Assembly: GCA_029378245.1 (NCBI GenBank)
Contig: JARKIF010000045.1
Span: forward strand, 248,001 to 312,000
DNA length: 64,000 nt
Origin: Roridomyces roridus
Lineage: Eukaryota > Basidiomycota > Agaricomycetes > Agaricales > Mycenaceae
Direction: 5' to 3'
The translations under genes and the position numbers were made by a program. Under the pieces are notes generated by a model. The model saw only the letters and a list, made by a program, of their open reading frames with translations, did not search any database and had not been told where the DNA came from. Of the stretch, positions 4,043 through 62,537 are shown piece by piece (positions within the stretch are counted from its first letter, which is position 1; every line of letters begins with the position of its first letter).

Positions 4043-7000
4043 ATGTCTCACCATCACCTATTAGGAGCCTCACCTGTGAATATCCAAGGTGTGTGAAACC
4101 TCTCCGGATGGAATCAAATCTAATTCTTCCCAAGCCTTAGGTGGCACGGGAGGTCCCGGTGGAGAAGGGCATTCAAAAGGGGGCCAGGGAGGTACTGGAG
4201 AAGGTGGCATCGTGAATGTGTATGTTCTTTTTTTGACATGATTCTATTGTATTCATTCTGTCATGTAGCAGTATCCATCAGGGTCCAAGGTTGATCATAT
4301 CTCCTGCTATCAATTTCTCAGCTTATATTCTTGCAGATTGGAACCTGATTTGTTCAAGTGGTTGGGAAATCCTCCTGATACTCAGGACAGACAGCATCAG
4401 CTGCAAGAGCTTCGGCATGAAGATACTGGGACCTGGTTGCTTGACAATGATCAGCTCATCAGTTGGAAAAATGTACCAGGCACCTTGTGGATCCAGGGAA
4501 TCTGTATGTTGGCCTTTTTCCCCCAATGCTCATCACATCTAATCTATTTCAGCTGGAACAGGGAAAAGTGTACTCAGGTACTTGATCATTTCATTCCACT
4601 ATCTCTACTGAAATGAACAGCTCAACAATCATTCGGCACCTCACTGAGACAGCAAACACAGTCTCATATTTCTTTTTTGACTTTAGAAATGACAGACAGA
4701 GCCTGGACATCATGTTGCGCTCTATTGTCTGGCAGCTTTCTAGGAAGTCACCGACTCCACATATTTCTCTGTCCCATCTTTATGAAAGGCTTGGAAATGG
4801 ATCCATACAGCCACAGGTCAATGATCTCCAAGAACTCCTTAAAACCTTGATTGGGGAACTGGCACCAACATATATTGTTCTCGATGGACTGGATGAATGC
4901 CAAAAAAATGACTGGACAAAGCTTGTTGTATTTGTGAACAAACTTTTCAGGGCTGCCACAAAAGGGCTGCATCTGCTTTTCACAAGTCAACTTTCCCAGG
5001 AATTCCAAACAGGGTTCAAGGACATTCCTTGCATACAGTTGCATGCATCAATCTTGCACGAGGACATAGAATCTTTTGTAGCAAGTGAGATTTTGGCGAT
5101 ATCACCTGATGTTCAGCATGCCAATGCAGTTACGGAACAAGTCGTGACAAAGAGCCGTGGAATGTGAGTGAAATCTGGCTTTGTAGGGTAAACTCAAAGC
5201 AGAAATAGGTTCCGCATGGCTGCCTGCCTCATTACTGAGTTAAAGCGATATCCCTGGGATGATGCCTGGGATAGTGTGGTGGCAGCCCTTCCAGCTGACC
5301 TCTTCAGTATCTATGGCCGTTTCATGAAACATGTCCTGGATACACCTGGAGTGTCACCAATTTTCATTGAAGCAATAATAAGATGGCTTTTGTTTTCTGC
5401 AGAAGAGCTTTCTCCAGAAGAGCTTGCAGATGCTATTGCTTTATGCTTGGACCTTCCAAGTTTTGACTTTTCCAACTTGGAGGCATCAATCCATGACCCA
5501 CGCAGACGCCAAGGAAATACACTGATTTTCAAGCTGTTGGATGGGCTCCTTGTTATTCACACCAAAAGAAATCACCAAAAATCAATCAGTTTTGCACACT
5601 CATCTGTGCGAGATTATGTCCTTTCCAAGGAGTTTTATGAAAAGTATGCATTGGATCTCAAGGAGAATAACTCACAAAAGTTCATCGCACAAACCTGTGT
5701 CCGTTACCTCCTCGTGTTCTCAGAAAATAATCAGTACATCCTGGGCAAGTATCCACTTGCACAATATGCAGCTAGACACTGGTTTGGCCACTTCCAGTCC
5801 TCTGATGCCACAGACCAGCAGCAGCTACTACCAACAACAATGCTTCTGTTTGAAGAGGGAAGTAGTCAATACAACACCCTGTGTGATTTACGGCCCGGGA
5901 ACTGGAACCAATACCCACCTATTTGTATGTGTGCAGAGATGAGGTTTCAAAGAGGGGTGCTGTCCTTGCTTGTTTCTGGGAAGGCATCAGTCAATGCTGT
6001 TACAGGGTCTGGACAAACACCACTGCACTGGGCCTCCTTGAATGGTGACCCCAATTGTGCCAAGCTGCTCCTTGAGCATGGGGCATCAGCCAATGCTGCT
6101 GATATAGATGGCCTGACTCCGGTGCACTGGGCCTGCTCATCTCACCACTACCCTTGTGCATACTCAAAGGGCCACCTTGATTGTGTAAAGCTGCTCATCG
6201 AACATGGGGCATCACTTAATGTTGCTGATAAGGATGGCCAGACTCCGCTGCACTGTGCCTCCCAATGCCACCAACGTCACAGATGTGCATACTCAAGGGG
6301 CCACCTCGATTGTGCAAGGATACTCATTGAACATGGGGCAGCACTCAATGCTGCTGATAATGATGGCGGGACTCCACTGTACAGTGCATACTTTTTCAGG
6401 GATGTAAATTATGTAAAGCTGCTCATTGACCATGGGGCATCACTTGATGCTGCTGATAAGGATGGCAAGACTCTGCTGCACATGGCCTCCTCTGATCACT
6501 ACCTTGATTTTGCAAAGCTGTTGAGGGAACATAGGGCATCAGTCCATGCTGTGAAGGTTGATGGCCAAACTGCGCTCCACTGTGCCTGCTTAATCGGTGA
6601 TGCACATGGTGCAGAACTGCTCATTGAGTATGGGGCAGCAGTCAATGCTGCTGATCAGGTTGGCCGGACTCCGCTGTACTGGGCATCATTAAATGGCCAC
6701 CTCAATTGTGCAAAGCTGCTCATTAAGTATGGGGCAGCAGTCAATGCTGCTGATCAGGTTGGCCGGGCTCCGCTGTACTGGGCATCATTAAATGGCCACC
6801 TTGATTGCACAAAGCTACTTATTGAAAATGGGGCATCAGTCAATGCTGCTGATAAGAATGGTTGGACACCACTGCACTGGGCCCCCTCACAGAACCATCT
6901 CAATTGTGCAAAGCTGCTGATTGAACATGGGGCATCAGTGCATGCTGTGAAGGACGATGGCCAAACCGTGCTCCACTGTGTCTGCTTAATTGGTGATGAA

Positions 7001-7693
7001 AATTGCGCAAAACTGCTGATTGACCATGGGGCATCAGTCAATGCTGCTGATAATGATAGCTGGACACCGCTCCACTATGCTTTCTCAAAGGGCCACATCG
7101 GTTGTGTAAAGCTGCTCATTGAACATGAGGCATCAGTCAATGTGGCTGACAAGAGTGGCAGAACACCACTGCATTGGGCGGCCTCAAATAGTGACCTGAA
7201 TTGTGGAAAGCTGCTCATTGAACATGGGGCATCAGTCAGTGCTGTTGATGAGAATGGCCTGACTCCACTGCACAATGCCTCTTTCACTGGCCATTGTGGT
7301 TGTGCAAAGATGCTGGTGGAGCATGGGGCATCAGTTGATGCTGCTGACATGATTGACAGGACTCCACTGCACTGGGCATCATTAAATGGCCACCTCAATT
7401 GTGCAAAGCTGCTCATTGAGTATGGGGCAGCAGTCAATGCTGCTGATCAGGTTGGCCGGACTCCGCTGTACTGGGCATCATTAAATGGCCACCTTGATTG
7501 TGCAAAGCTGCTTATTGGAAATGGGGCATCAGCCAATGCTGCTGATAGGAATGGCTGGACACCACTGCACTGTGCCTGCTCACAGAACCACCTTAATTGT
7601 GCAAAGCTGCTGATTGAACATGGGGCATCAGTCAGTGCTGCTGATAAGAATGGCCAGACTCCACTGCACAGATTGTGCAAAGCTACTCATTGA
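4043..7693 (+). CDS. NLR-like protein A: Gly-rich, NACHT, ankyrin repeats (C-terminally truncated)
   Basis: Predicted signal-transducing STAND NTPase of the fungal NLR type. Proposed exons are 4043-4088, 4141-4219, 4337-4503, 4553-4577, 4621-5163 and 5209-7693, which sum to 1115 codons. Order of parts: a short N terminus; a Gly-rich exon (GGTGGPGGEG...GGTGEGG); a linker (LFKWLGNPPDTQD, DTGTWLL, LWIQGI); a P-loop GTGKSVLS split over an intron; Walker B YIVLDGLDEC; a winged-helix-like part; then sixteen full ankyrin repeats from about 5970. Repeats 2 and 3 carry roughly ten-residue insertions (CAYSKGH type). The frame ends early inside repeat 17. A net 23-nt deletion near 7668 moves the remaining ankyrin and acidic C terminus (to 8036) into another frame, whereas gene B is continuous there. 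NACHT-ankyrin proteins sense ligands through the repeats and oligomerise through NACHT; ligand and partner are unknown. Confidence 0.85.
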
Positions 7694-8036
7694 CCATGGA
7701 GCGTCACTCGATGCCACTGATAAAGATGGCTGGACTCCTCTGCAACATGCCTCCTCACACAGCCATCTTTGCATTGCCAAGCTGCTCTTGGCTCATAATA
7801 CATCTCTGGACTTGATCCATGACCCTGCTTTGACTGTATTTCTGCTTGTTTTGAAATATCGGTATCTGGATATTGATTTGTTTCAGCCCGGCAATTATGC
7901 TCCAGATGTGTCTGATGCCTTTGACATTGATGATTCAGATTCATATGTCACTGCATTAGATCCAGATTCATCTGACACCGGTGATTCAGACTCATATTTC
8001 ACTGCGTTGGATACAGAATTGTTCCATTTTGAATAG
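7668..8036 (+). pseudogene. Frameshifted 3' end of NLR gene A
   Basis: After the shift, this frame encodes another one and a half ankyrin repeats (CAKLLIDHGAS, DKDGWTPLQHAS), then a C-terminal cap (LLLAHNTSLDLI, YRYLDIDLF) matching the natural end of NLR gene B (LLLDHNASINLI, GYLEIDLL). An acidic Asp/Ser tail with two imperfect DSDSY-TALD units follows. It is therefore the original C terminus of the same gene, now out of frame, and not a separate gene. Confidence 0.75.
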
Positions 8037-8834: not shown

Positions 8835-9400
8835 GCCAGAAAATTTGTTCAGTGACTGCCTTGACATGTTCAACATCATCAGGCATTGCTAAAATCTTGC
8901 TGTAGACAAAAGACCTGATGTCCACCTGGACAATTGATGCATGCAACTTTATGAGAGGAAGGTGCTTGAACTTGGGTTAGAATTCCTGGACAGGTTGACT
9001 TGCGAGCAGAACATGCAGCCCTGTTGTGGAAGAACCACATAGTCTGTTCACAAATTCAACAAGACCTGTCCAATCCTCTTTGCGGCATTCATCCAATCCA
9101 TCTAGAACAATGTAAGTCTGGGCTAGTTCCCCAATCGAGGTTCCAAGGAGTTCTTGCAGATCAGTAACCTGTGGCTTTATGCTTCCACCTAGTCTTTCAC
9201 AAAGATGGGAAAGAGAATTATGTGGATCTGGTGACTTTGCAGAAAGCTGCCAGACAATAGAGTGGACCATAATATGCAGGCTCTGTCGGTTATTCTTGGG
9301 GTCAAAGTCAAAGTCAAAAAATCTTGACAAGATGGTCAATGATTGTTGAGCTACTCCAAATAGAAAAAGAACCAGCACCCAGCACAGACCTGAGACAAAG
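8835..9400 (-). pseudogene. NACHT-domain remnant, third NLR copy
   Basis: The minus strand encodes the core of the same NACHT domain as the two NLR genes: RQSLHIMVHSIVWQLS, then YIVLDGLDECRKEDW, then LHASIVQVDIRSFV and KILAMPDDVEHVKAVTEQI. It is closer to NLR B (CRKEDWTGLVEFV) than to A. The P-loop exon is gone: the sequence upstream of the STIIDHL-like start is a decayed intron. No winged-helix or ankyrin part follows. It is a broken fragment in the opposite orientation to NLR A. Confidence 0.8.
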
Positions 9401-9432
9401 GATGGAGGAGATAAGTCCATCATCTTTGACAT

Positions 9433-13376: not shown

Positions 13377-14593
13377 GTAGCGGGAAGACTCAAGAGCAGC
13401 CGGATCATCTCACGGGCACGCCTTGGTCTTGAGCACCACCAATTCCGAGAGCCAGCAAGGACAGTCTTTCCGGCGGCCCGACCCGATTTTGAACCGTTGT
13501 TGCCCTCGGGAGACATCGACCGTCTCCGAGTCAATGTCGCGTGCGAGCCTCGCCTACGCGTTACAATGCCGGTGAGCGCCTTGTCACGATGAATGGCACG
13601 AGGTCTCAGGGCGTCTTTGGATCGTGCGTAGCAAGAATCATCGCTGCCCTTGGGCTTTTGCACGTACATCCTACTTCCTAGTCAGCCACTCCTCGCCACG
13701 GCCCACCACCATGCACCTGGGAAAACTTATCCGCAAATTGATCCACCGACTCTCCGGGTCTCTACACCTGCGACGCCGCGCCAGCCACCCGAGTTCTCCC
13801 GCCAATGACGACCCAGGATCAACTTCGAACTGCATCTCACATGCAGATATAGGTGGTATCAAGAACCTGCTTTTGAGGGCCATTGCAGGTGCATGGCAAT
13901 CCGAGTCTGTAGGTTGAGCCTGGTGAAGTCTGTGATTCCCGTGGCCACAAGAAGTTGGGGATGATAACAGGAGGTGTTGCTTCTTCTTCGTACTACTTAG
14001 GCATTCGCACTGACAAAGTGAGGTGAGATGACGGGTCACGGCCCACGGGTGACAATGAGTCCCGGGGGATGGTTTACAAGCCAGATGCGAAAAAGATGCT
14101 AGAAAGGCGGTATTTCCTCCGCACACCACGAGAGAGGATGGGTACAAGTCACTATATTTACTGTCCGTCGTCCAAAGGGCCGTTGTAAGTGAGCTGAAAA
14201 CTTGCTGAAAACCAAGAAATTGGGTGAGATGCTAAGGAGAGAGACACAGGAGACGCACGCCAGGCCTACATACGTGAGACGAGGGAGTTGGAATGGGCTG
14301 TTGAAACAGTCGATGCGTGGCGGTGGGAACCCGAAGCTGGTGGAAAACCAAGAAAACAAGAGGCGTGCCTGTCAACGGAACTGTCGTCGGCTGTCAAACA
14401 GACCTCCGGTCCCGTTCCGCGTCCGACTCGCCGTCGGCAGAGATGTTAATGACACGGAGGCCGGCAGAAGTGAGCAGGCATAATAGTAATTGACTAAGAG
14501 CAACCAAATGGAGCCAGAACACCGCCAAAATTACCTTATAAGGAAGTTGTAAGAGGCAAACAACCAGGGCTCAAAGATGTCATCGGTAAAAAT

Positions 14594-14903
14594 TAAGGTT
14601 CACCAGGGGTAGAGGTCTACCTCCAAAGGTCAGAGGTAAGGTCAACGGAGGTAAGGGTAGAGGTCAACCCCATGCTCGACCTCTCATTTGTAAATGTAGG
14701 CTTTTGGGGCTGGTGACCAACCCATGGGTGAGTACAAGCCTGGAAAGGCCTAATTAACACAATATCTAAGAATTTTTAGCCCCCAGGCTCTTGCCAAGGC
14801 CTAAACCTCTGACTGTACCTCTGACCTTTGGAGGTAAGGGTAGAGGAGGTAGGGGTGGAGGTCAGGCCATTCCTACCTCTACCTCTACCCCTGGGGAACC
14901 TTA
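14594..14903. mobile_element. 310-bp MITE with 8-bp target duplication
   Basis: The termini are TAAGGTTCACCAGGGGTAGA and the inverted TAAGGTTCCCCAGGGGTAGA. The 8-bp word GTAAAAAT flanks both ends (14586-14593 and 14904-14911). The interior is rich in AGGTAGAGGTC-type short repeats in both orientations and has no open frame. An 8-bp duplication points to the hAT superfamily. It lies in the insert that separates the first exon of gene A from its body. Confidence 0.8.
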
Positions 14904-15629
14904 GTAAAAATTGGACCCCCACTTTGGCGGGAAACGGGCCGATAAGACCGAGCTTAAAAATAAATTTTCAAGACTCGGAACAAGCAGGATGGAGAAGCGC
15001 AAGCATCCCGCACCCACACTGGACGCAACGCCGTGAAATTCGTTCTCGAAACGCTGAGCAAGGTCTCGGACAACATTCCCCTCGGCAGTGTTGTAAACAG
15101 TGTCATCGACCCGCTCTTGGACGTCGCTGACCGGATCGAGGTGCGTACGTGTTGTGGGGGTGTCGTGAATTCCTGGGATCTTCATGGGACATTTAGGAAA
15201 CCGAAGCGAACCGCGAAGGATTGGTTCAGTTGGCGGCGAGGATCGGACGACTTCTTCACATCATTGGGGAGAAGAGATCTACTCCGTTTGAAGAGGAATC
15301 TGCGTCGGTTGTTGAGGATGTCTTGCGCAAGTCCGTATCTCAGCTTGCCATATGAACATCGATTTACATCTTACCGACCCGCGCAGGGAGCTCCAATCCA
15401 TTGCAGCCGATCTCAACGCAGCGCGCTCTCAAGGAAAGATTCAACAATTCTTCAACAGCAGGGATACCGCTGGTTCGCTCGCGGCGCACAACGACACCCT
15501 TGCACGCCTCATTTTCGAGTTTAGTGTACGCACTTGCTTGGAGCGTATCTACTTGAACACTGATTGGGAGGATTCTGCAGCTCGAGAAAATGCAAGATGT
15601 CCAAAAGTCTTTGAAGGTGATCGAAGAGA

Positions 15630-17574
15630 AGCGCTATACGGTAGGCCGGAAGGCCAAGGATGAAATTTGAATTGTGGCATCGGACATCGGCAGAGTTCGG
15701 CTCAGTTTCGGTTATCCCATCACGGTCTGGACCCCGACACGACCACACGCACACCGTGACGGGTCGCGTCAGGTTGTCCTCGTCGCCGTCTCTCTATTGG
15801 ACTGTAAAAGTGCGGGATAAAGATAGCATTTTCAAATGATTGTCAGCTCGGAGCACATGTATTTTTCAAAGCCTCTCTAGTGTCTACCGAAGAAGTGAAA
15901 GCATACGAGTATATGTATCCCAGCCAGACGATATAGTCAGCTTTGGCTTTCCCAATTGATCATAGACACCAGCTGCCCGAACATCAAACTCCTCAGGCAC
16001 CCATCTCATGCATTCTTCCCGCGTTTTGGGCAGCATAGCGCGAAGCTCGTCTACCACCTCCTTCGTAACTTCAGCTCCAGCACGTTGCAGACCAAAGTTA
16101 GTGGGATTGTGGAAAACCTCTCTCGGAGAGACACCCGATGGCAGGCACTTCTCTTTCTTGTTTCGAGTCTTGTGGTGATTCCAGTACTTGACAAAGTTGT
16201 CCATGGCTGTCTTGACAATCTTGGACCACAGCCATTGGAACAACAGACTGCCAAAAGAGGTGTAAAGAGACCAAAGTATATTATTGGGCAGGAACATACA
16301 TGTCAAGCTCGAGACCAATGTTGATCAGATTCTCACTCTTGCCTGAAAGGATTGTTGCCTTGAGATCGTGGCCGGTGAACTGGAGAAAGTAGCTCCAGAT
16401 GAATTCGATCGGAAGGTTATCCGTGCTCTTGAGGGCGACGACGCCGGGGGCGGGACCTGGGATGAATTTGGCACTGAAATATGGATTAGTTGAAGCAAAA
16501 TAAGTAGCCTGTGGGTGCGCACCGAAGAAAATCATGCAAATCTTTCATATATTTGGTCTCCGTACCACCGTCAACAGTAAGTTGCACAGGCATCCCTGTG
16601 AGAGAGAAAATGTAATGACAACAAGTTTGAGTAAGGGTAGAAAGCCACTTACATCCCATCTTCTCGACAAGGTCAAGATATAGGTGCCCACACGTAATAC
16701 CACAGCGAGCGTTCGGTACCACCTCCATCAAGACTATGAATCCACTGCCGTGGCATCGACCACCGTAGACAGGTCGTGTCGGCAACAAAGCTTTCGACAT
16801 CCTGTTTGATTTGACCACTCACACTCCCGATGGGTAAGACTTGATTCAACTAATACCACGTCCTACTGAACCTGCATCTGCCCCACAGAGCAAGTGGTGT
16901 CAGTGATCATGGTCAACAAGGGCTCCGGGAGTTTATCAAACAACATGAATGTGTTGCTCGTTGCGAGAAGCTTGGCTTGGGGGAACTTGAGAGTCCTGAG
17001 ATGCCGAACGAAGAGGGGGAACAGTAGTTTTTAAAATCCCGTCCTTTGGACTCTTTTAGGCTGGGTGCCAATTGAAAGAGTCTATGTGTGTCTCCGGAAA
17101 CTGCTGAAAATCTGTGCATCATACCGGGGAGCTCCACCCGGTATGTATCGTGGTGGGCGAATACTGCCAAAAAAAAAGAAACCCCCTGAATGGATCAAAC
17201 ACTGTTAAAGTCACAAAGAGGCTAACGGGCAGCTACCGGTAGACCATTATACCAATACAGAGAATGAATGGCCTTCCGGCCTACCGTAGATCCGGAGTGT
17301 GAGTGGTCAATTTCACTTCTTCGGTAGATACTAGAGAGGCTTTGAAAAATACATGTCCAATTGGTGGAAAATGCTGTCTTTATCCATCGAGAGACGACGA
17401 CGACGACGATGACAATGACGAGCTCACGCGACGCGTCACGGTCCCAGTGGAGGTGCATGTGGTCGTGTCGGGGCCCAGACCGTGATGGGATAGCCGAAGC
17501 CTAGCCGAACTCAGCCGATGTCCGATGCCACAATTCAAAATTCATCCTTGGCCTTCCGGCCTACGGTAAGCGCT
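15630..17574. mobile_element. 1.9-kb TIR element carrying an integrase-like gene
   Basis: Long imperfect terminal inverted repeats of roughly 170-190 bp, beginning AGCGCT-TAC-GTAGGCCGG, bound this insert. The AGCGCT tips are self-complementary, so the target duplication cannot be fixed (0-3 bp). Comparison with copy B (codons for Lys-Leu at 41240-41250) defines the empty site GAGA/AGCTCC precisely. It contains a minus-strand integrase-like gene. I cannot name the superfamily from sequence alone. Confidence 0.75.
15884..16818 (-). CDS. Integrase-core-like protein, partial, inside TIR element
   Basis: Several minus-strand frames, interrupted by what look like short introns, together match a DDE integrase-like protein family that is widespread in agaricomycetes. 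In order: an N-terminal part (VYGGRCHGSGFIVLME); a catalytic-like segment (GMPVQLTVDGGTETKYM) with the Asp-Gly-Gly-Thr-Glu core; DNLPIEFIWSYFLQFTGHDL; then WLWSKIVKTAMDNFVKYWN, LPSGVSPREVF and LPKTREECMRWVPEEFD. The order is that of an integrase core with its C-terminal region, but the N terminus before 16818 is missing or decayed, so activity is doubtful. It could be the element's transposase or a passenger. Confidence 0.55.
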
Positions 17575-18731
17575 AGCTCCAAACCTCGGCGCAGAATGGG
17601 AATATTGACGACGTCCGCCCGGAGCTCTTCGGTAAGTCTCTTACCAGTCGTACCCTCCTCGTCAATAAATCTTTCAACTCGAAGGTGGCAAGAGCGGCAA
17701 CGGTGGTCCGAGCGACGACGTCGGTGGGGATGGCGGTCTCGGCCAGGGAACACGGCTGCCGATCGAAGACATCAATGGATTCAAGCGGATTTTTGGTACG
17801 TGAGGACAGTTTATCTCCCAAACCAACTAATGTTCCTTTCAGGTGGGATTGGAGGCGAAGGAGGATTTGGGCCTAACAAAGGCGGTATCGACGGGGAGGG
17901 GCAAGCAACACAATTCGGAAGCCGGCTTCTCCCTGCCTCTTGCAAGGGCCTGCCTAGCCTACCCATGGTGGAATTTTGCCTTGCATACGATCTGGATGAG
18001 GATGTCCTTAAACGGCTGAGAGAGCAGGGGTTCAAGATGTCTGGGGCGCTGTATGGGCTGAAGGATGAAGATTTGATGAAAGTCGGGTTCAAGCTGGGGC
18101 ATGTTGCGGAGGTGAAGCGGGCGCTGAGGGAGTTTGTGGACGCAGCGGAGGCGGGATCTCAGAGAGCGGGTTGAGTCCGGCGTATGCGTTACGATTTAGG
18201 ACTCATCCTTTAGGACCGGCGGTGACTTTCGGTTGAAATGTGTGCATGCGGCTATTTCCTTGACAGTCGGCATTTTGAACTTCAACTTCAAAGAAGTTCC
18301 ATCCCATCCGCCAGATCCGACAACAAGGGAGCTGCTCACCCTGCCTAGGAAAAACCTCAAAGTCAATGCTGTTCGATCTGGTTTCTTTCATCTGGCACCG
18401 ACGCTACCGGCACCATGTGGTTGGGATTCCTTGATAGGGTATCGTGGGCCTCTTGAATCTTGCATTTAACTGCTCATAATTTCAGGACGGCAACAAATAT
18501 TCACTCAACTGTCATTCACAGTCCAAGTTGCCAAGGGTTATTGCAGACTGCGAGTATTTTTCTTCTTGAGACAATACCGGCTGTCGAAGAATACAACGAC
18601 AATACCGACTGTCTGAATACAAGCGCGCGACCCAAATATATGCTGCATGGTACTGGACAATAGGAGATAGCACTTGAGAGCCTCGTGTACCTATAAGTAC
18701 CACCAAGCGAGCGCGATATACCAGCGCTACA

Positions 18732-19327
18732 ATGCTATCAATTTCAGTCGCCGGTACGTCTTGCGTCCCCACACCCACATCTTCTGCTCCCGGCCGTCCT
18801 AGGAGGAATAGGTGGTGCAGGCGGAGTCAGTCCCAAAATAGGGGGGGAAAGGTGTGATGCCGGAGGGGCGCAGGTCGATTCTGAGGCTGCCAAACTGACA
18901 CAGAATCTGGCCCTGGTCGGTACGTACAACATATGTTCACCTCGAGTTCAAGTAGTTGAATTGGGTTCCAGGTGGAACAGCCGGTGCCGGTGGCCAAGGA
19001 GGAGACCAGGGCGGCGACGGAGGATACGGCAACACCGCTGCCCTACTGCTGCCGCTCCTCACTGCGGAAGACATCCACTTGTTGCCACCACGCCTGGCCC
19101 TCAAGGAATTTTGCGACAACTGCGGGCTGGAGGATGTATATCTAAAGCTCAATGCCCAAGGATATAGAAGGGTCGCTGCCGTGGCAGTCGCTTCTCCGCA
19201 GAAGCTGATGGATGCATGCAAGTTGAGAGAGGGTGATATTGACGAGTTGAAGGTCGAGATGCAGGCGTTGATCGGGAGCAGGAATGTGCCGATAGTCCAG
19301 GCCAGTGTGACTATAGATCTGCCTTGA
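18732..19327 (+). CDS. Gly-rich / SAM-like small protein A
   Basis: Three exons are proposed: a short first exon (MLSISVAG), a Gly-rich exon (GIGGAGGVSPKIGG..., then a short helix EAAKLTQNLALVG), and a last exon beginning GTAGAGGQGGDQGGDGG that ends at 19327. Both Gly-rich exons are entered in phase 1. The last exon carries a helical domain (LKEFCDNCGLEDVYLKL, KLREGDIDELKVEMQAL) related in layout to the SAM-like end of the neighbouring four-helix gene. There is no catalytic motif or membrane segment, so an adaptor role is the simplest guess. It lies 0.56 kb downstream of the broken four-helix gene on the same strand, as in copy B. Confidence 0.7.
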
Positions 19328-38879: not shown

Positions 38880-39517
38880 CTACCTCGACATCTTCTTCCC
38901 CAACATCTTCTTCTTAGTCTTAGTGTTGGCCATAGGAGGCGGCGCCCCAGCTGCCTCCTGGGCCTTGACGACCCACGCCTGCATCGCTGTCTTCAACTCG
39001 TCGATATGACCAACGCCCAAGCCGCATGTATCCTTCAGCGTCGTCCGAGAAGCGTTTGCCACTGCAGCAACCGTTCGATATCCTTGGCTTTTGAGCATGG
39101 GATAAATATCCTCAAGCTCCTCCTGGTGCTCTTCGCAAAATTCCTTGAGGCTCTTGCGTCCCAACCACTTGATCTCTTCCACAGTGAGGAGCGGCAGCAA
39201 AAGGTTGGCCGTTTCGCCGAGTCCTCCCCCGCCGCCCTGTTTTCCTCCTTGGCCACCGGCACCGCCCGCTCCACCTGATCCCAATTCAACGTGAGCTCGA
39301 GGTTGAATCGATGCATAAGTTCTACGTACCGATCCCCACCAACTGCTTTGTCAGTTTGACGGCAGCAGGCTCAAACTGCGGTCCCCCACCAAGACCACCT
39401 TGCCCCCCCAAGTTGGGGCTAGCTCCGCCTGGACCACCTTTCCCTCCTAAAACGCCCATGAGCATACGAGGGGTGGGGGATGCAAGACGTACCCTCCATT
39501 CTGATCAAGTCCGACAT
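38880..39517 (-). CDS. Gly-rich / SAM-like small protein B
   Basis: Three exons, as in copy A: start MSDLIRMEG at 39517; a Gly-rich exon (GKGGPGGASPNLGGQGGLGG, then the helix EPAAVKLTKQLVGIG); and a last exon opening GAGGAGGQGGKQGGGGG. The helical C-terminal part (KSLKEFCEEHQEELEDIY, HIDELKTAMQAWV) ends in a Lys-rich tail (KTKKKMLGKKMSR) absent from copy A. Introns flanking the Gly-rich exon are both phase 1. Likely a soluble adaptor; the basic tail could bind acidic lipid or protein surfaces (guess). Confidence 0.7.
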
Positions 39518-40626: not shown

Positions 40627-42046
40627 TCAACCCGCCCTCTGAGATCCCGCCTCCACAGCCTCCACAAACTCCCTCAACGCCCTCTTCATCTCTGCGACAT
40701 GACCCACCTTGAACCCGACACGCATCAAATCATCATCCTTCAGCCCATACAGCGCCCCAGACATTTTGAATCCCTGCTCTCTCAACCGTTCAAGGATGTC
40801 CTCATCGAGATCGTATGCAAGGCCAAATTCCACTATGGGTAGGCTAGGCAGCCCCCTATAAGAGGCAGGGAGGAGCCGGCTTCCGAGTTGTGTTGCTTGC
40901 CCCATTCCGCCGATACCGCCTTTGTTAGGCCCAAAACCTCCTTCGCCTCCGGTCCCACCTGAAACGGATATTAGTGGGCTTGGGAGATATATTGTATTCA
41001 AGTACCAAAAATCCGCTTGAATTCATGAATGTCTTGGATCGCCAGCCGTGTTCCCTCACCGAGACCGCCATCCCCGCCGATGTCGTCGCTCGCGCCACCT
41101 TTGCCGCCTTGACCGCCTTCCATTTGAACGATCTATTAACAATGAGGATATGAATGGCCAGAGACTCACCGAAGAGCTCCGGGCGGATGTCCTCAGAATT
41201 CCCATTCTGCGCCGATGTTTCGAGCTTCTCTTCGATAGCCTTCAATGACTTTCGGACATCTTGCGTTCCCTCGAGCTGCAGAATCATTCCAGTCAGTTTT
41301 CAAGCAGATAGGCGCCGAGAAAATGCCTACAGTCAACTCGGAAATGAGATATGCGAGGGTGTCGTTATGCGCCGCGAGCGAACCAGCAGTATCCCTGCTG
41401 TTGAAGAATTGTTTAATCCTCCCTTGCGAACGCGCTGCGTTGAGATCGGCTGAAATGAATTCGAGCTCCCTGCGAGGGTCGGTAAGACGTGAATGGATAC
41501 TCATAGCGTTAGCTGAGATACGTGCCTGTGCAAGACATCCTCAACCACCGACGCAGATTCCTCCTCAAGCGAAGTAGATCTCCTCTCCCCAATGATGTGA
41601 AGCAATCGCCCGATTCTCGCCCCCAACTGAACCAACCCTTCGCGGTTCGCTTCGGTTTCCTAAATATCCCATGAATATCCGGAGAATTCACAGCACCACA
41701 AGGTTGAAGGCGTACGCACCTCGATCCGGTCAGCGACCTCCAAGAGTGGGTCGATGACGCTGTTGATGACACCGCCGAGGGGGATGTTGTACGAGACCTT
41801 GCTCAGCGTCTCGAGAGCAAATTTCACGGCGTTGCGTCCAGTTTGGGCGCGGCATGCCTCTTTTTCTCCATCCCGCTTGCTCTTGATACTGCCTACATCT
41901 GAATGTGAGATGCAGCTCGAAGTCGACCCTGGGTCCTCATCCGCGGGAGAGGTCGGACGGCTGGCGTGGCGTCGCAGGTGCAGAGAATCGGGAAGTCGGC
42001 GGATGAATTTGGGAATAACTTGAAGGTTGTTGAGTGGGAGGTGCAT
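40627..42046 (-). CDS. Intact four-helix (MLKL/HeLo-like) / Gly-rich / SAM-like protein B
   Basis: Six exons or so from 42046: a basic N terminus (MHLPLNNLQVIPKFIRRL); a helical bundle region (FALETLSKVSYNIPLGGV, LVQLGARIGRLLHIIGE, FISADLNAARSQGRI, FFNSRDTAGSLAAHNDTL, VRKSLKAIEEKLE); a Gly-rich exon (GGQGGKGGASDDIGGDGG); and a final exon starting GGIGGEGGFGPNKGGIGG and ending in a SAM-like domain (ILERLREQGFKMSGAL, LMRVGFKVGHVAEMKRAL). The bundle resembles the N-terminal four-helix domain of MLKL-like and HeLo-like fungal proteins, which in known cases perforate or bind membranes once released by a partner. The second intron (41469-41525) has a GC donor. Divergently placed from NLR B with about 3.3 kb between starts. 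Function is inferred. Confidence 0.72.
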
Positions 42047-45406: not shown

Positions 45407-48400
45407 ATGTCTAATACCCACCGGGTCAGAAGAGGCGGGGAAGTGCATATCCATGGTGTGTGAAATCCAGGAGATTGGGACCATGAGAAATCATGATCTT
45501 CGGCTATAGGTGGACCAGGAGGGCCGGGTGGAACAGGTGATGGAATCGGCGGTACTGGTGGCGCCGGAGGAAGTCCCAATGTCAAAATGTATGCTTTTTG
45601 ATATCCCTGCTGCCAATTTCATTCATCATTTCATGACAGTGTCCAAGGGTTCATCACATTTTCTCCTGCCATAGTTCTTGTAGCTCATCTTTGGTGTAGA
45701 TCAGATGAAGATTTGCTCAAGTGGTTGGGTAATCCCCCGGATACACAGGACAAACAGCGTGACCTACAAGGGTACCGCTATCAGGATACTGGGACCTGGC
45801 TGCTTGAGCATGATCAGTTCAAGAGTTGGGAAAAAACACCTGGCAGTTTGTGGATTCAGGGAGTCTGTATGTTGGCCAATTTTAGTCCATTTCATATCTG
45901 ATCAATTTTCAGCTGGAACAGGGAAAAGTGTACTCAGGTACTTCACTTATTTTACTGCACTATCTCCACTGACATCAATAGCTCAACAATCATCAGAGAC
46001 CTTGTTGACGCTGGCAACACAGTCTCGTATTTCTTTTTTGACTTCCGGATCCCCGAGAAACAGAGCCTGGATATCATGTTGTGCTCCCTTGTATGGCAGC
46101 TGGCTGGGCAGTCAGACCCTGCACATGACTGTCTCTCCAATCTTCACAAAAAGCTTGGAAATGGATCTGTACCTCCAGGTCGAGGAGATCTCCAACAAGT
46201 CCTTGATGACTTGATTGCGGAACTGGGACAGGTATACATTGTTCTGGATGGACTGGATGAATGCCGCAAAGAGGATTGGACAGGTCTTGTTGAATTTGTG
46301 CACAAACTATGTGGTTCCTCCAAGAAGTGCCCATATTTGCTGTTCACAAGTCAACATCGCCAGGAATTTCAGACTGGGTTCAAGGACATTCCTCTGATGC
46401 AGTTGCATGCATCAACCTTGAATGAGGACATAAAATCCTTTGTCTCCAGCAAGATTTTGGCAATGTCTGCAGATAGGGAACATGCCAATGTGGTCATTGA
46501 ACAAATTGTGAGCAAGAGCAATGGAATGTAAGCCCTATTCATATTTGCTTTTGGTGTAAACTCAAAAAGAAATTAATAGGTTCCGCATGGCAGATTGCTT
46601 GATCAAGGAATTGGGGCATTATCCATGGGAGGATGAATGGGATGATGTCCTTGCAGATCTGCTGCCTGCTGATCTCTTCAGCATCTACAGCCGTTTCCTT
46701 AACCGTGCGAAAGCAGAACCCAAAGTGCCATCAGTGTTCATTGAGGCAATACTACGGTGGCTTGTGTTTGCAGAGGGGAAGCTCTCACCAGAGGAGCTTG
46801 CAGATGCTATTGCCTTTCGCTTGGACATGCCCAATTTTGACTTCTCCAATCTGGATGCATCAATCTATTACCCTGGCAGGCGCAAGGGAAATTCTCAGAT
46901 CTTCAAGCTGCTTGATGGACTCGTTGTCATCAACACCCAGGATTACAGGCAAGGATCCATCAGTTTGGCACACTCATCTGTGCGAGACTATGTCCTTTCC
47001 CAAGAGTTTCATCAAGAGCATGGATCCAGTTTTGATCTCAGTGAGAATATCTCACAAAAGTTCATTGCACAAACATGTCTCCGTTATCTCCTTGTGTTTG
47101 CAGGAAATGATGAAATTACGATCCAGGACACCTGGTTTCAGTACCCACTTGCAGATTATGCAGCAGTATACTGGTTCACTCACTTGCAGCACTGTGATGA
47201 CATAAACCAGGAGCAGCTACTCCCAACAACAATGCATCTGCTGAAAGATCAAAGTAGCCAATACAACATGCTATACGACCTACAGAGGTACGCCAAATGG
47301 AGAGTGTATGAATGGCCCATACCAGCAGTTTGTATGTGTGCAGCGATAGGGTTTAAACGAGGGGTGTGGTCTTTGCTCAATGATAGGAAGGTGGTAGTGA
47401 ACACTTCGCAGGAGGATGGAGCAACGGCACTGCATGTAGCCTTACGGATGGGACATCCTGACATTGCAAAGTTGCTCATAGAACATGGGGCATCAGTCAA
47501 CAGTGGTGCAAACAATGGCTGGACTCCACTGCACTGGGCATCCTCAAAGGGTTACCTTGATATTGCAAAGCTGCTCATAGAACATGGGGCATCAGTCCAT
47601 CCTTTTGATGAGGATGGCCAGACTCCACTGCACAGGGCATCCTCAAATGGTTACCTTGATATTGCAAAGCTGCTCATTAAACATGAGGCATCAGTTGATG
47701 CTGCTTGGGAGCATGACCAGACTCCACTGCACATTGCATCCTCAAATGGTCACCTTGACATTGCAAAAATGCTCATTCAACATGGGGCATCAATTGATGG
47801 TGCTAAGGTGAATGGGAATGGTCCACTGATTTCAGCATCCTGGAATGGCCACCGTGATGTTGCAAAGATGCTCATAGACCATGGGGCCGCAGTCAATGCT
47901 TTCAATGAGTATGGCCAGAGTCCACTGGACAGTGCATCCTTGAATGGTCACCTTGACGTTGCAAAGCTGCTGATAGACTATGGGGCATCACTCAATGCTG
48001 GTGATAAGGATGGCTGGACTCCACTGCACAGTGTGTCGGTGCATGGCCACCTTGACACCGCAAAACTGCTCATAAAACATGGGGCTTCAGTAGATACTGC
48101 TGACAAGGATGGCCAGACTCCACTGCACTGTGCATCCTCACATGGTTACACTGACGTTGCAAGGCTGCTCATTGAACATGGGGCAGCGGTCAGTGCTGCT
48201 GACAAGAATGGTTGGACTCCGCTGCATCATGCTTCTGCAGAAGGCCACCTTGAAGTTGCAATGCTGCTCATAGAACATGGGGCACCAGTCAATGCTGCTG
48301 AGGCGGCTGGGTGGACTGCACTGCATCTTTCCTCAGGTAAACACCACCTTCGAATCACCAAACTGCTTTTGGACCATAATGCATCCATCAACCTAATCAA

Positions 48401-48473
48401 TGAACCTGGTTGGGTCGTCTTTCTCATTTTGTTACAACATGGGTATCTGGAAATTGATTTGCTTGTGTCATGA
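45407..48473 (+). CDS. NLR-like protein B: Gly-rich, NACHT, ankyrin repeats (intact)
   Basis: Exons 45407-45455, 45510-45588, 45700-45866, 45913-45937, 45982-46527 and 46580-48473 give 919 residues in a clean frame; exon lengths 3 and 4 equal those of gene A. The N terminus MSNTHRVRRGGEVHIH leads into a Gly-rich exon (GGPGGPGGTGDGIGGTGGAG). The linker (LLKWLGNPPDTQDKQ) precedes a P-loop GTGKSVLS, Walker B YIVLDGLDECRKEDW, a winged-helix-like part (LLPADLFSIYSRF, LAHSSVRDYVLSQEF) and ten ankyrin repeats with a C-terminal cap (GYLEIDLLVS). It should act as a cytosolic STAND NTPase switch. The Gly-rich start, rather than a classic effector domain, suggests signalling through partners that carry the same module. 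Confidence 0.9.
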
Positions 48474-50334: not shown

Positions 50335-50423
50335 AGGACAGCTCAAGAGCTGTCACTCGAACAATAGGACAACAGTACTTGTCCAGCGCGGGAAGGGTTG
50401 CTAGGACAGAACCCGACGCGCCG

Positions 50424-51215: not shown

Positions 51216-51690
51216 TGTCACGACAAGACTTGTTTCACGCGTCCAACAGCGGTAAGATGCTGTGGATTGGGTAGTGCGCTACTAAAGCTCGTAAAATGAA
51301 CTGAATAAAAGTCTAGGAGAGGGTACAGAATACGACGACTAGCTACTGCTTTTATACTATGAGGAATAGATCTACGATGCTACACTAATTGTCCTGGCTT
51401 CCGACATGCACTATTGTCCTGCACCGTTGTCGTCTCCTATTGTCATGTCTACACCGTGTTCATCATAGAAGCCTGTCATGATCTGACAGTTCACTGATCG
51501 AAAACTCCTTCCCTCATCCACGCTGTCGTTCATAAATATGAAACTGTCCCACGTCTTTAAATAATGTCTTCCTCGGCTTCTTCCTCAATCCGATCGAGAC
51601 GGGGTTCCCAGGACCTTAGCGCTGTACGGCGCCAATGCTTATCTGGTTCGTTTGGCGTTGTCACGTGCGCAAATAGATCAGCGCGTGACA
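51216..51690 (-). repeat. 3' LTR of gypsy element
   Basis: 475 bp, TG...CA ends. The last codons of pol read into it. Also contains the short frame encoding SRADLFAHVTTPNEPDKH. Confidence 0.92.
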
Positions 51691-55789: not shown

Positions 55790-56949
55790 AAACCCTTCTC
55801 TCGGAGTATGGTCGCGAGAGCCTGCAGGTCCTCCTGCGTATAGTCTTCGGTCTTGATCGACCGGATATTAAACTTCTTCTTGGGAGGCTCCGGGCACTCC
55901 CGCTTCATGTGGCCCTCCTTGCCACAGTTGTAACACTTGAACGCGGCCTGCCGCGTTCGGTCGACGTCCATCGGCGCCGGATTTCCAGGAGTGACCCGGG
56001 TGGCCAGATGGGGGGCTGTCCCCTGGGGCCTTGGCGGCGGCACCAGTGCCGTGGCCTTGGGGAATTTGGGCGGCGGCTGCTGCTGCGCCGGCGTCCAAAA
56101 CATTCCACCTCCCGCTCCCCAGCGAGAGTTGATGAGCTTCCCGCGCTCAATGATGCCGTTGATTGTCATCAACCGGCTTTTCAATCCCGGGTACGTCCCC
56201 GGGATCGCAACGCCACCAGCATAAAGCTGTTTGCGTACCTGGTCCGAGACCAGGATTTCCAGCGCCTGACACAAGAACGTGTCATGGAGCTCGTTTCCGG
56301 GCGCGTAGCCCGCCTGCTCAGCGTTCAGCTCGAACGACTGAAGGAAGTCGGCCAGGGTGGAGCTACCCTGCCGAGTGTTCATCAGGCGCAACAGCGCCGT
56401 CTCCTTGACATTCTGATCCGCGAACGTCGACTCCAACTCCGTCATAAACTCCTCGAAGGAGGGACGGAGTTGACCCAGGCGTAAGTGCTTCGCCTTCCAG
56501 TTCCGTGACCAGTTGGCGGCCGGACACGGAGAACTCTTCTCGTCGCCCAGCAACGAGAGCACGAAGAAAATACGTCTATGATCCGTATTAAAATCGTGTT
56601 CGTATGCCACAAGGTAGGTCATGACACTGTCGATCCAAGTTTCCCACTTGGATTTGTCATTGCCGTCAAACGGCGGGGGAAGCCGGGCCAGCGTCATTCT
56701 TGCTGGTGCCGGGCGTGGGGGGAGGGCCTGAAGTAACTCAGTCAGGCCAGGCTGGGCGGGGGGTTGTGAGTCGGGTCGTGTGGGAAGGGGGCGAGGGGGA
56801 GAACGGGTAGGAGGGCGGGAGGGGTAGATTTGTTGGGGAGGGTACGAGTAACCAGCCTGAGGCTGGTCATAGGGGATGGGGCTGCCGTGATGGGACATGG
56901 CAGGGGCGGCGGTATGGAAGGTGTGGTGGGTGGTGGCGGAAGCGGCCAA
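55783..56949 (-). CDS. gag: Gag protein of gypsy element
   Basis: 388 residues: a Pro/His-rich start, a capsid-like helical region (FDGNDKSKWETWIDSVMTYL, FMTELESTFADQNVKE), then one CCHC zinc knuckle (CYNCGKEGHMKREC) near the C terminus. It ends KGFC-stop and overlaps pol by seven bases in the -1 frame. Confidence 0.92.
   Translation of the reverse strand: MAASATTHHTFHTAAPAMSHHGSPIPYDQPQAGYSYPPQQIYPSRPPTRSPPRPLPTRPDSQPPAQPGLTELLQALPPRPAPARMTLARLPPPFDGNDKSKWETWIDSVMTYLVAYEHDFNTDHRRIFFVLSLLGDEKSSPCPAANWSRNWKAKHLRLGQLRPSFEEFMTELESTFADQNVKETALLRLMNTRQGSSTLADFLQSFELNAEQAGYAPGNELHDTFLCQALEILVSDQVRKQLYAGGVAIPGTYPGLKSRLMTINGIIERGKLINSRWGAGGGMFWTPAQQQPPPKFPKATALVPPPRPQGTAPHLATRVTPGNPAPMDVDRTRQAAFKCYNCGKEGHMKRECPEPPKKKFNIRSIKTEDYTQEDLQALATILREKGFC
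55789..55795 (-). promoter_or_regulatory. Candidate -1 ribosomal frameshift site GGGTTTT
   Basis: The heptamer G-GGT-TTT lies in the gag frame three codons before (and reading toward) the gag stop TAG at 55783-55785, and pol is open in the -1 frame there without a usable ATG. This fits the X-XXY-YYZ rule for simultaneous slippage. Confidence 0.6.
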
Positions 56950-57399
56950 GAGTTGGTCCGCTACGGAACGGGCTTCACGGCTAGAGGTGCCGGAAGAGGA
57001 GGATGATGGTGCGCGAAACGCCGTCGCGGCTTGGGTAGGAGCGGCACGAAGCCGGTGGTGGGTTTCTCGGTCAGAACGCTTGCCGATAGAACAGACCCGG
57101 GCCTTCTACGACTCTCCCGGTATCTGCGCGAGGGTACTCTCCGAAGATTGCCACCCGAACGCCAACGTCTGCTATTGTGCGGGGACGGACTCAACGTTTC
57201 CCGTAGCACAGCGACTGTCTATCAAAATAGTTCGACCAAAGATTGGCGCTTGTTTAACGTCGCGATTCAACGACGTGACGCTTGAGGTATGAGTGGATCT
57301 TCAATTACGAGAATCCAAGTAGTGGGGGAGGGACGCCGAGGCGTATGGAAAGGATATGTCGGGGGGAGGTAAGAGCGGTATGAGGGTAGACTTTTATTA

Positions 57400-58743: not shown

Positions 58744-61700
58744 ATCACCGCTAATTCTCCATCGTGCATAGGGCGGGGTATCTTCAGGAGAAGATGGTTG
58801 CAGGTGTGAACAATGGGGGCAGGTACACGTGGAGATTCAAAGCATCCTGAACAAAAGTCCACGGTTTCTGTTCCATCGCGATCCATGCACTGAGCGCAGA
58901 GCACTTTTACTCTGGTGATCACCTTGTGACAGCCCAAGTCATCGCAATATCGGTTGCTGTGAGGCCACGGAACTCAGTGGCCATCAACAAAGAAGAGTAT
59001 TGCACGTACAATGAAAAATCTGGTGAGACTGGAATATTGGCTTCCTCCTGGATTGTACCATGTTCGAGGAAATCCACTGCCTTCTCCTTTGAACACTCTT
59101 TTGGAAACACAGGTTGAACATCCTCCTCGTTGAAGTCAAATTCAGGGTTCGGTGTGAATGTGCGGATGGTGTTCTTCAATGGATCCCTGGGGTGGGCCGC
59201 CGAAGTGAGCTGGAACTGGACCGACACCATGAGCTCAGGGAGGGAGCTGGCCTGAACACCCACCATTCCAAGTGCACATTGCGCCATCCAGGCATCTGTG
59301 CCCTGTGACTCACGAGCCTCAAAAATTTCTAGGAGTGATGTGAGCAGCCAACAGAGTTGATGAAAGCACACAGACCTCCCAATTTTTCGATTCTCTCATC
59401 AACGACAATGAATATTGCCATGATAGATTTTGCTAGTCTCTGGAATTCACTTGCAGAATCTTTCAGGCCATAAACAGCAGCCAGGCGCATCACATCAAAA
59501 TGGTGCTTCAAAAGTAGATAAAGGACGGGGTACACAAGCTGGCGATAAAGTCCCGTTAGTAGCCTTTCCAACCACTAGAAAGGAACACAGTGCTCACATG
59601 TTCGGCGCGCCGACTTTTTGCCAATACTGAAAGTGAGTTGTAATCCAAGTTATACTGCAGAACCTCTAGTCGCTGTTCAAACTTGTCGGTCTCTGTTCTC
59701 CGATATTCGTCGATAAGCTCGCGAAGCTTCTTTCCCTCGGGAATTGGCTTTGGACTGGGCCGTGTAGCACGGAGAAGCAACTCGATCCGGCGCATTTCAG
59801 GCCCACACAGGTATGAATTTGCAGCGGCCAAGTTTTCTGGGCGCACACGCTCCAAGACCCTCAGCATTGCCCTCAAAATGTTGTAGATGCGTGTTCTGTA
59901 CCACGTCACCGATGCTTGCCATCCGGCCGCGCAAAATGCGAGCCATTCAACGAGGCTAAGAGTAGTTGAACATCAGTGATCTGACATGGTTCACTGGGAA
60001 ATTATTTACCTCCAATTGTTCGGTTTCAAGGAGGCAAACTGGTTGGCTGCCCGAACACTGACATAGCCGGTACCGTCGCTATCAGCCGACTCCGCAATCT
60101 GTCGCAGGTAAGGGAAACCAAGGTAAGCCACAGTCCAGACATCTTTAACGGATTCCAATCGGCTGGATGGGATCACGATCCGTTGAGAATCCGCCGTGGG
60201 GACCCCAAGCTCTTCAAATTTTTCAACATAATAGTAGTTCAGGGCGAGCGCAAAATCCTGTGCCCTGACACTACCCCTCCATCCCTGCTTCATCCAAAGT
60301 ATACTGAGATCCTAAATTGGGGAATCAGAGGCCAAATGGACAAAGATGAAGAAGAGGCGCACCGCGTCCAACAGCTTCTTTGATTGACCACCTGTAACTG
60401 TGTCCTTGATCCGGTTCTCAGCCTCTGTGACTGCTGCCTTGACCGACCGCACTGGCCGAGGAAAGGTGGCCTCCAGATTTTTTCTGAGCAATTCAAGGGT
60501 GCGCTTGAACTGCGGATAATATTCTTGGCAAGCCTGGGTGGCATCCTGCTTCCAGGCATTGGTTAAAATGCCCTGGAGGTACTCGTCTGCGCGCTGGAGG
60601 TTCCCCAACTGAGTCATATCGAAGGACTCCAAGGAGTACCCTGCATGAGCCACGAGGTCGGCCCGAACATCTGCATGCACTATGCACATTTCGATAGAAT
60701 GGCCGCGGAGGAAACGGTGTACAAGACACTGTTTTGGTGTGTCCAGTCGGCGAAATAATTTATCCATCTTCTCTCGTAAGGAATCCGGGGTGATCCTCTC
60801 CCCGATAGGCGCCGTTGCCGGAACTTCACTCGTAAGTTGATGAAACTGAACCACAATGTCCGTGAACAGCTTTTCATAGTTTTTGCATTTGATGGTTCGA
60901 ACTATGGAATTGTGGATTGATGTGTGAATTTCGCAAAGGGAGGATTTACCGAGCTCATGCTTTTCCATATATACAATGCACACCTTGGCGCATTCTTCAA
61001 TGGCTGCTGCTATTCTGGGCATCACACCCAATTGCTCGACATTTGCAGCTTCGGCGTCACTGAGATTCCGAAGTCTGAGCACGGTCAATGATCAGAAGGA
61101 ATGGCCCAAAGGAAGAGCACAACTTGAGAAGCGCAGCCACTGCTGCCTGCATTTTCAGAGTCACCGCCATGACTTTTCTGCTGTTGACTCGCTGACTATC
61201 GAGCATCGTGATGAGTTTGAACGCCACCACGACGTCTGTATAAGTACGTGTTCCAATGAGGTAGAGCCGAACATCAGCATCACGCGCCTTGGACAAACTT
61301 GAATGCCTCAATTTCCACAAGCAGATCCAGGCCTTCGATGAGCATCGTGGACGTCCCATTGAACCTGGTGCACGCAATGTCAAATGCGCTCAAGCTCTCT
61401 TCGTTGATGGCACTGGCGAATGCCGTCCCGGGCCGATCGATGTGGGCCGCATTCCTTTCGGTGAAGATGTTGAGCAGCTCGGCCGGATCACCAATCTCCA
61501 TCGTGGGACCATTATTGACAGTGAAATAGGTGCCTCCACCGTCACCACCGGTGCCCCCCATGTCGGTAGCTGAGCCTCCAGTACCGCCTGAGCCACCTGT
61601 TGATGAATGAGCCGAGCGAGAAGTCGATGATTAACGTCGAAGAACTACCTGTGATATAGAAAGCCATATTAGCCATCCGCATCTGGGCATCTGACTTGGT

Positions 61701-61744
61701 ATGAGAATGTACGTGAGTTGCTTGGGCAGAAAGATAAAGGCTGA

Positions 61745-62537
61745 TCAACTTACCGGAAGAGTCATAGACTCTGTAATTGCCACAGCGTGCTCAGGGATAT
61801 CGTTCTCTTTTGTCCCACCTGTTGCGAATGATGAGTTGCCAACAGGAGTTAGAAAAATGATTCTCCTACTAGCCAACGGGGTCCGAGTCCAGGCCTTGGC
61901 GTTCTCCGCAATGTCAGCTGAAGTCGTTGGAGAGCCGAGGGGGCTCGTAGCACCGGCTGGGACCATCGGCTCATTCCTGCCCCTGATTAACGCCTGCATC
62001 TCGACCTTCAACTCTGCAATATCACCCTCTCTCAAGTCACATTCACTCATCAGCTTCTCGGGAGGAACGACTGCCACGGCAGCAACCGTTCTATATCCTC
62101 GGGCGGCGAGCTTGAGATACACATCCTCGAGCCCCCACTTTTCGCAAAATTGCCGGAGGTCCTGGCGGTTGTGTCTCAACCACTCGATCTCTTCCTCACT
62201 GAGGAGCGGCAGCGATACGTTAGCCGTTGCGCCATCTCCTCCCGCGCCGCCCCGGTTTCCTCCTTCGCCACCGGTACCTCCCTTGCCACCTGAGCCCAAT
62301 CAACGTGAGCTTGAGATGAAACCCATGAATAGGTTGTACGCACCGAACCCGAGCAACTTCTTGGTCAGTTTGACGACAGCAGCCTCGAACTGCGCTATCC
62401 CGCCACGGCCACCTCGGCCTCCTTCGTTGGCGCTGGCTCCGCCTGCACCACCTGGTCCTCCTGCAACGGCATAAGCATACAACGGGATACGGGATCCAAG
62501 ACGTACCAGTCATTGAAATTGATTCCATTGTAGGCAT
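61745..62537 (-). CDS. Gly-rich / SAM-like small protein C, longer C terminus
   Basis: Exon 1 62507-62537 (MPTMESISMTG), exon 2 62344-62460 (GPGGAGGASANEGGRGGRGG and the helix EAAVVKLTKKLLGFG), then an exon starting at 62289 with GKGGTGGEGGNRGGAGG and the helical domain (LRQFCEKWGLEDVYLKL, DLREGDIAELKVEMQAL). Beyond the point where copies A and B stop, the frame stays open for about 70 residues. That extension contains a likely 51-nt intron (branch CTAAC, acceptor AACAG) and a perfect GTAAGT donor at its end. It may therefore splice in frame into the EF-hand/ZZ gene that begins at 61682. Stop at 61745 if it does not. Confidence 0.65.

Follow-up and report, generated by a model that had tools for sequence, protein, structure and literature searches.

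Published amyloid motifs contain a run of alternating hydrophobic residues. As for the closest described system, passages of PMC12881547 present HET-S as a HeLo domain followed by two C-terminal repeats, and NWD2 as a NOD-like receptor (NLR) with one repeat at its extreme N terminus. The subject of this analysis is a glycine-rich module (Gly module) from Roridomyces roridus, found in NLR, four-helix, and SAM genes of the window, i.e., the whole stretch of 64,000 nucleotides analyzed here (contig JARKIF010000045.1, positions 248,001 to 312,000, forward strand). Its layout is that of the HET-S/NWD2 (HRAM) system in the same passages, with a single N-terminal motif on the NLR and two tandem copies behind the presumed executioner. 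On balance, the Gly module is probably a homotypic signaling element of fungal innate immunity.

According to the main text of Wojciechowski et al. 2022 (PMC9815663), agaricomycete NLR N termini were paired in silico with MLKL-like four-helix domains (BaMLKL), with dozens of receptors per strain, and 23% of basidiomycete NLR N termini were annotated. Candidate motifs were filtered there by amyloid grammar, motif pairs were reported in few agaricomycetes, and motifs NLR05/08/22/29/44 are described as HRAM-like, having three hydrophobics and a G[DN] pair. The genes analyzed here are similar to the pairs of that text in that an agaricomycete NLR N terminus is matched with an MLKL-like four-helix domain. 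Glycine-rich polyproline II (PPII) bundles are known from snow flea/springtail antifreeze proteins (2pne, 3bog, 7jjv), Obg, and phage spike tips (review PMC8409303). As presented there, each of these folds as one domain and serves to bind ice or ribosomes or has some other role, whereas the present candidates for such a fold are separate short modules on different proteins.

Sequence and exon structure of the Gly module

A six-frame scan for glycine-dense stretches, combined with exon-edge checks, gives 13 Gly modules in eight named genes of the window, and the GGxGGxGG-type exon that the first-pass annotation reported in these eight genes is thus real. One module each is found in the two NLRs and at 61596, and two each in the two four-helix and three SAM genes; the scan additionally returned a few unrelated low-complexity blocks. 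The alignment of all 13 has the common pattern GGxGGxGG-x5-GGxGGxG with seven invariant glycines and fixed spacing, and glycine makes up about half of the module's 28 positions. The features of these genes, with the evidence for each in parentheses, are as follows.

4043..4088, plus strand: NLR A leader exon MSHHHLLGASPVNIQ-G, ending in phase 1 (exon-edge check)
4141..4219, plus strand: NLR A Gly module exon (GGTGGPGGEGHSKGGQGGTGEGG), entered in phase 1 and left in phase 2 (exon-edge check)
4337..7693, plus strand: body of the NLR A receptor with ankyrin repeats and NTPase exons of NPHP3_N type, drawn with some of its introns (Pfam; first acceptor by eye)
13711..15664, plus strand: four-helix protein A, helical exons, interrupted at ~13867-14975 (splice model)
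17685..17795, plus strand: four-helix A Gly module 1, 111 nt (exon-edge check)
17843..18174, plus strand: four-helix A Gly module 2 and SAM (exon-edge check)
18803..18919, plus strand: SAM gene 1 Gly module 1, 117 nt with an eroded second arm (exon-edge check)
18972..19273, plus strand: SAM gene 1 Gly module 2 and SAM domain (SAM search, exon edges)
38973..39274, minus strand: SAM gene 2 Gly module 2 and SAM domain, exon start 39274 (SAM search, exon edges)
39330..39446, minus strand: SAM gene 2 Gly module 1, 117 nt (exon-edge check)
40627..40958, minus strand: four-helix B Gly module 2, SAM domain, and stop (splice model, exon edges; SAM-type fold on homologue P0044)
41006..41116, minus strand: four-helix B Gly module 1, 111 nt, 1-1 symmetric (exon-edge check)
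41168..42046, minus strand: four-helix protein B, helical domain exons (deposited P0042, 99% identical to the model)
45407..45455, plus strand: NLR B leader exon MSNTHRVRRGGEVHIH-G (exon-edge check)
45510..45588, plus strand: NLR B Gly module exon (GGPGGPGGTGDGIGGTGGAGGS) (exon-edge check)
45902..48473, plus strand: NLR B NPHP3_N domain (2.6e-21) and ankyrin repeats (Pfam)
61508..61596, minus strand: third Gly module, of the supposed EF-hand/ZZ gene at 61682 (exon edges; in SAM gene 3 per deposited P0067)
61754..62289, minus strand: SAM gene 3 Gly module 2 and SAM domain, with more exons downstream (SAM search, exon edges)
62344..62460, minus strand: SAM gene 3 Gly module 1, 117 nt, 1-1 (exon-edge check)
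62507..62537, minus strand: SAM gene 3 leader exon MPTMESISMT-G (exon-edge check)

All 13 window modules have AG directly before the exon and are entered in phase 1 as GTGG, GAGG, or GCGG with the first Gly codon split, in full agreement with the initial description. The identical phase-1 acceptor is present in 28 of 30 fetched module loci (one being NLR A itself and two being alike), the exceptions being L042 and L047, and in most of the 30 the module exon is preceded by a short leader that ends in NIxG or a similar sequence. A sample not picked by gene type was drawn from 3,288 GGxGGxGG places (30 fetched from the first 100, amounting to 20 distinct places in contig C1). Five of these 20 bare-GGxGGxGG places are full two-arm modules, which all have the phase-1 acceptor (5/5) and all sit 414-469 bp from an NLR exon; the same acceptor occurs in 2 of the 15 non-module places, both of them GAGGAGG-type repeats. 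The phase-1 entry of the module is not chance.

The first Gly exon is 1-1 symmetric in the four-helix genes (111 nt in both) and in the SAM genes (117 nt in all three), and the second module of these genes is fused to the SAM exon. The symmetry once ascribed to the Gly exon of the SAM-like genes is seen in the first of their Gly exons.

Conservation beyond the glycines was assessed with a position matrix trained on 44 distinct modules from NLR, WIR-type (see below), and two unknown loci. The 34 effector/SAM modules outscore all 2000 shuffles in each of three regions scored separately, namely the C-terminal flank, the linker, and the x positions; mean matrix scores are negative, and the excess over shuffles alone counts. 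An earlier shuffle that also moved the conserved glycines was too harsh and is not relied on, and a reversed-pattern control is uninformative because the module pattern is identical when read backwards. Random glycine-rich low complexity was set aside on the basis of the bare-GGxGGxGG sample and the shuffle controls. No Pfam family matched the Gly module itself in the proteins scanned.

The same data bear on the idea of a mere spacer, in which the module would be a flexible linker rich in glycine or a condensate-type low-complexity stretch. Its glycine content and its location between domains in the four-helix genes are what such a linker would have; however, arm and linker lengths are mostly fixed, the flanks and x positions are conserved, as is the phase-1 entry, the set of carriers is restricted, and the module is predicted to be partly ordered. 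We therefore regard a pure spacer as improbable.

Carriers in the genome and alternation at NLR N termini

NLR A and NLR B share the same order, i.e., a leader of ~16 residues, the module, and the NTPase, with the module at the extreme N terminus. In NLR A the NPHP3_N match (1.9e-23) lies at L039:1950-2528, which is the same DNA as window 4586-5164, and ankyrin Pfam matches extend across 5192-7693. A third NLR A-type fragment at window 8839-9312 on the minus strand has an in-frame stop within the match and is likely a decayed copy; the six-frame scan detected no Gly module near it. The cluster also encloses a long retrotransposon at window 51557-57105 (Gag zinc knuckle, reverse transcriptase, integrase, and chromodomain, by eye from open frames).

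Genome-wide, one module query returns at least 82 sites in R. roridus, 45 of which were assigned by position: 22 to NLRs, 11 to the WIR-type family, 8 to four-helix genes (six genes), and 4 to SAM genes, with a chance expectation of ~0.3 or less. Among the 22 NLR sites, C79:77627 and the twin site C356:5318 are assigned less surely (on a distance of 1980 bp). The assignment is a lower bound, the sites having been compared with 76 of the 116 NLR A-type exon matches and with 17/150, 11/11, 17/20, and 13/16 of four other match lists. Reading of fetched loci covered 27 of the 37 remaining sites, the other ten probably being second haplotypes, and gave 17 NB-ARC-like genes (a P-loop plus DUF7779 and/or TPR), 4 further NLRs of NPHP3_N type, 4 genes of the WIR type, and 2 unknown (L051, L087). 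The NB-ARC-like label is based on TPR/DUF7779 matches (among them two DUF7779 members, one being L062 and the other taken to be L067), on AAA_16 or NB-ARC below the cut-off on six P-loop pieces, and on inspection by eye.

The second query, the NLR B module, returns at least 65 sites, with 60 located 180-1658 bp upstream of a same-strand NLR exon and 56 at 414-469 bp upstream of an NLR exon; this again is a lower bound, from comparison with ~97 of the 116 NLR A-type exon matches and one match from another list. The two sets share 3 sites, which amounts to at least 144 sites in the genome, where haplotype duplicates are counted within both the 82 and the 65 and best candidates only are included. 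On this small scale, the C1 sample and the carrier assignments do not present same-phase Gly exons scattered at random over unrelated genes.

The WIR-type family is named after a W-I-R and then an STG-x-LC-like motif, seen by eye, and bears an N-terminal module (L045, L048, L049, L052, L053, L055, L057, L058, L061, L066, L079). Four of its loci (L053, L057, L066, L079) were assigned by eye, L079 having a partial motif. The pieces of this family that were scanned have no Pfam match, and a kinase-like reading made by eye was dropped for want of Pfam support.

Since the NPHP3_N-ankyrin genes of the NLR A type have been strongly amplified (116 exon matches, at least five of them grouped near one end of contig C1 at 6-99 kb) and the assembly contains apparent haplotype duplicates, one might suspect hitchhiking, with the Gly exon merely carried along by mobile DNA or tandem duplication of a few gene families. 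The module is, however, found on at least four kinds of carriers (P-loop NLRs, four-helix, SAM, and WIR-type) and is retained in proteins of Mycena, Favolaschia, and Tetrapyrgos, which makes this explanation very improbable.

As for the NLR N terminus, the homologue set of one NLR class comprises 219 proteins at E <= 0.001, with the best 120 examined. A module stands at the start of 3 of these 120 (P0069, P0072, and P0077, all R. roridus), a crude pattern finds a four-helix-type N terminus in 24 of the 50 compared, and many other homologues are truncated or begin at the NTPase. The models P0070, P0071, and P0076 also begin at the NTPase without a module, and matching loci (L043, L068, and L060, where open frames begin alike) carry one upstream. 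Because deposited models lack this upstream Gly exon, annotation probably undercounts the module. The NTPase domains of all six proteins have 75-82% identity to those of the four-helix-bearing P0073 and P0074, and P0076 groups beside these two in a quick tree (support 0.93). Among close NLR paralogues, the N terminus thus alternates between the four-helix domain and the module. On contig C301, loci L043 and L060 have four-helix exons followed in order by a short duplicate of the NTPase start, the leader of the Gly exon, the Gly module, and the NTPase; the duplicate and the leader share one open frame. This order may be a snapshot of an exchange of N-terminal domains, or else both domains may belong to one gene. 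NLR homologues of HET-S/NWD2-type systems likewise have either an effector domain fused to them or a short motif.

Four-helix proteins and deposited relatives

The deposited R. roridus protein P0042 matches the model of four-helix B, which confirms its splicing, Gly exons included, with two residues differing at one junction. Four-helix A is split by extra DNA of ~1.1 kb (13867-14975) and ~1.9 kb (15661-17576), and an inverted repeat of 116 nt (15637-15752 / 17453-17568, 92%) borders the second insert, so this copy may be broken by mobile elements.

According to hhalign, the four-helix profile aligns with fungal NLR-fused four-helix N-terminal domains with a value of 95.1 (reversed and shuffled controls run), and this comparison supports kinship of the four-helix domain with NLR N-terminal domains. 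Fold matches of the four-helix part are unspecific, with MLKL/HeLo/RPW8-CC-R among the fold neighbors. The PDB sequence search with the same profile has a best E of 0.035 and no MLKL or HET-s chain among the 29 matches listed, and NCBIfam gives no useful match. Judged by domain likeness, the four-helix proteins are most likely HeLo/MLKL-like executioners. In comparison with MLKL/HeLo/RPW8-CC-R executioners, they have no kinase domain that we could see, their Gly modules and then often a SAM domain follow, and Pfam scores stay below the cut-off.

Deposited relatives of the four-helix/SAM proteins come from Mycena, Roridomyces, Favolaschia, Tetrapyrgos (Campanellaceae), and, in one case, a metagenome. 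GGxGG is present in 27/27, the two-arm pattern in 25/27, and two or more modules in 21/27, in a set biased towards module carriers because the query contained modules. Some relatives end with or shortly after two modules (P0056, P0058, P0059) and others run on into the SAM domain; in P0055-P0061 two modules reach the C-terminal end or stop at most a few tens of residues short of it. Where the SAM domain is present, a SAM fold was found at the C terminus. Deposited fragments of NLRs from Roridomyces and from several species of Mycena also have an N-terminal module, and the glycine-arm pattern fits 8 of 41 matches. Overall, NLRs have one N-terminal copy, and four-helix proteins have one or more, mostly two, at the C terminus or before SAM.

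Predicted fold and proposed signaling role

AlphaFold2 (AF2) predicts PPII-type module arms with short strands on both flanks, partly ordered, and packs the modules of one chain together in a model resembling PPII bundles. The module is probably, as far as this model goes, a glycine hairpin, with two polyglycine-II helices as its arms and short strands on the flanks that close it. Such hairpins may assemble side by side as a polyglycine-II bundle and not as cross-beta amyloid, a suggestion we make with some hesitation.

An amyloid could signal in the same way if hydrophobic flanks and Gly arms formed a beta-arch like HET-s R1/R2 and the AF2 bundle were a glycine-rich artefact. The single/double layout is that of NWD2/HET-S, the predicted short strands flank the modules on both sides, and the main text of PMC9815663 reports amyloid-like motifs at basidiomycete NLR N termini. 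On the other hand, about half of the 28 positions are glycine without an alternating-hydrophobic run, the predicted model resembles PPII bundles, and the word "glycine" is absent from the main text of that amyloid-grammar survey, from whose motifs the module is set apart by text descriptions and not by logos or supplements. There is also no resemblance by eye to HRAM, PP/RHIM, sigma, or PUASM motifs, and a literature search of titles and abstracts returned no report of such a Gly module. We consider the amyloid version unlikely.

The packing of one chain's modules by AF2 would equally suit a stable cap or oligomerization element inside each protein (an intramolecular bundle or dimer), spread by descent and exon shuffling with no link between proteins, and symmetric 1-1 exons do shuffle easily. 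However, the NLRs seen carry one module, unable to fold alone into a multi-helix bundle, and the alternation of four-helix domain and module at NLR N termini is expected for effectors acting in cis versus in trans. A purely internal role thus appears unlikely.

Several observations weigh against the homotypic signaling role. The Gly exons of the NLRs have 79 nt in phase 1-2 and are not symmetric, and 15 of the 72 examined sites belong to the uncharacterized WIR-type family. The window four-helix protein has 0 Pfam families at E <= 0.01, with RPW8 and MLKL_N among weak Pfam relatives of the domain, all below the cut-off. Carriers of the receptor, adaptor, and effector kinds do lie together within the 64 kb, as the first-pass annotation had it, yet most genome carriers are on other contigs, which indicates a genome-wide family rather than one neighborhood. 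The EF-hand/ZZ carrier at 61682 is not confirmed: Pfam shows no family at E <= 1 in two approximate spliced pieces and none at E <= 0.01 in open frames, neither EF-hand nor ZZ being supported, and the deposited protein P0067 joins the module at 61596 to the SAM gene at 62537, i.e., SAM gene 3. The proposal of a shared homotypic Gly module in place of a known amyloid motif has strong circumstantial backing from the association of NLR, four-helix, and SAM genes, the NWD2/HET-S layout, the alternation, and the predicted bundle, and the interaction itself is what we infer from sequence.

For the homotypic signaling element, the following mechanism may be envisaged. NLRs (NPHP3_N/NACHT-ankyrin, NB-ARC-like with TPR, and others) would use their one N-terminal copy where other fungal NLRs bear an effector domain or an amyloid signaling motif, and the putative four-helix executioners would use mostly two tandem copies, C-terminal or before SAM. 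Small module-bearing SAM proteins are probably adaptors or nucleators. Ligand binding would cause the NLR to oligomerize and its modules to cluster; the clustered modules would recruit the paired modules of the four-helix protein, which would thereby be concentrated and activated. Homotypic binding, activation, and cell death by module proteins would be the outcome.

In comparison with HET-S/NWD2, the predicted structure here is a polyglycine-II bundle instead of a beta-arch, and the module is found also on SAM proteins and an uncharacterized family, with many receptors and mostly unlinked partners. It is tentatively proposed that these proteins represent a new class of immune assembly, neither amyloid, death-fold, nor TIR, in which NLR sensors, SAM adaptors, and four-helix executioners would build a polyglycine-II bundle in trans, with the module as common wiring element at at least 144 sites and in relatives. 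Basidiomycete NLR repertoires are large, and one module on several receptor kinds and on likely executioners would provide a handle for predicting which proteins talk to each other. If the bundle prediction is true, it would add a further physical principle for templated immune signaling beside amyloids and helical death-fold filaments, and a signaling role for Gly-rich PPII bundles.

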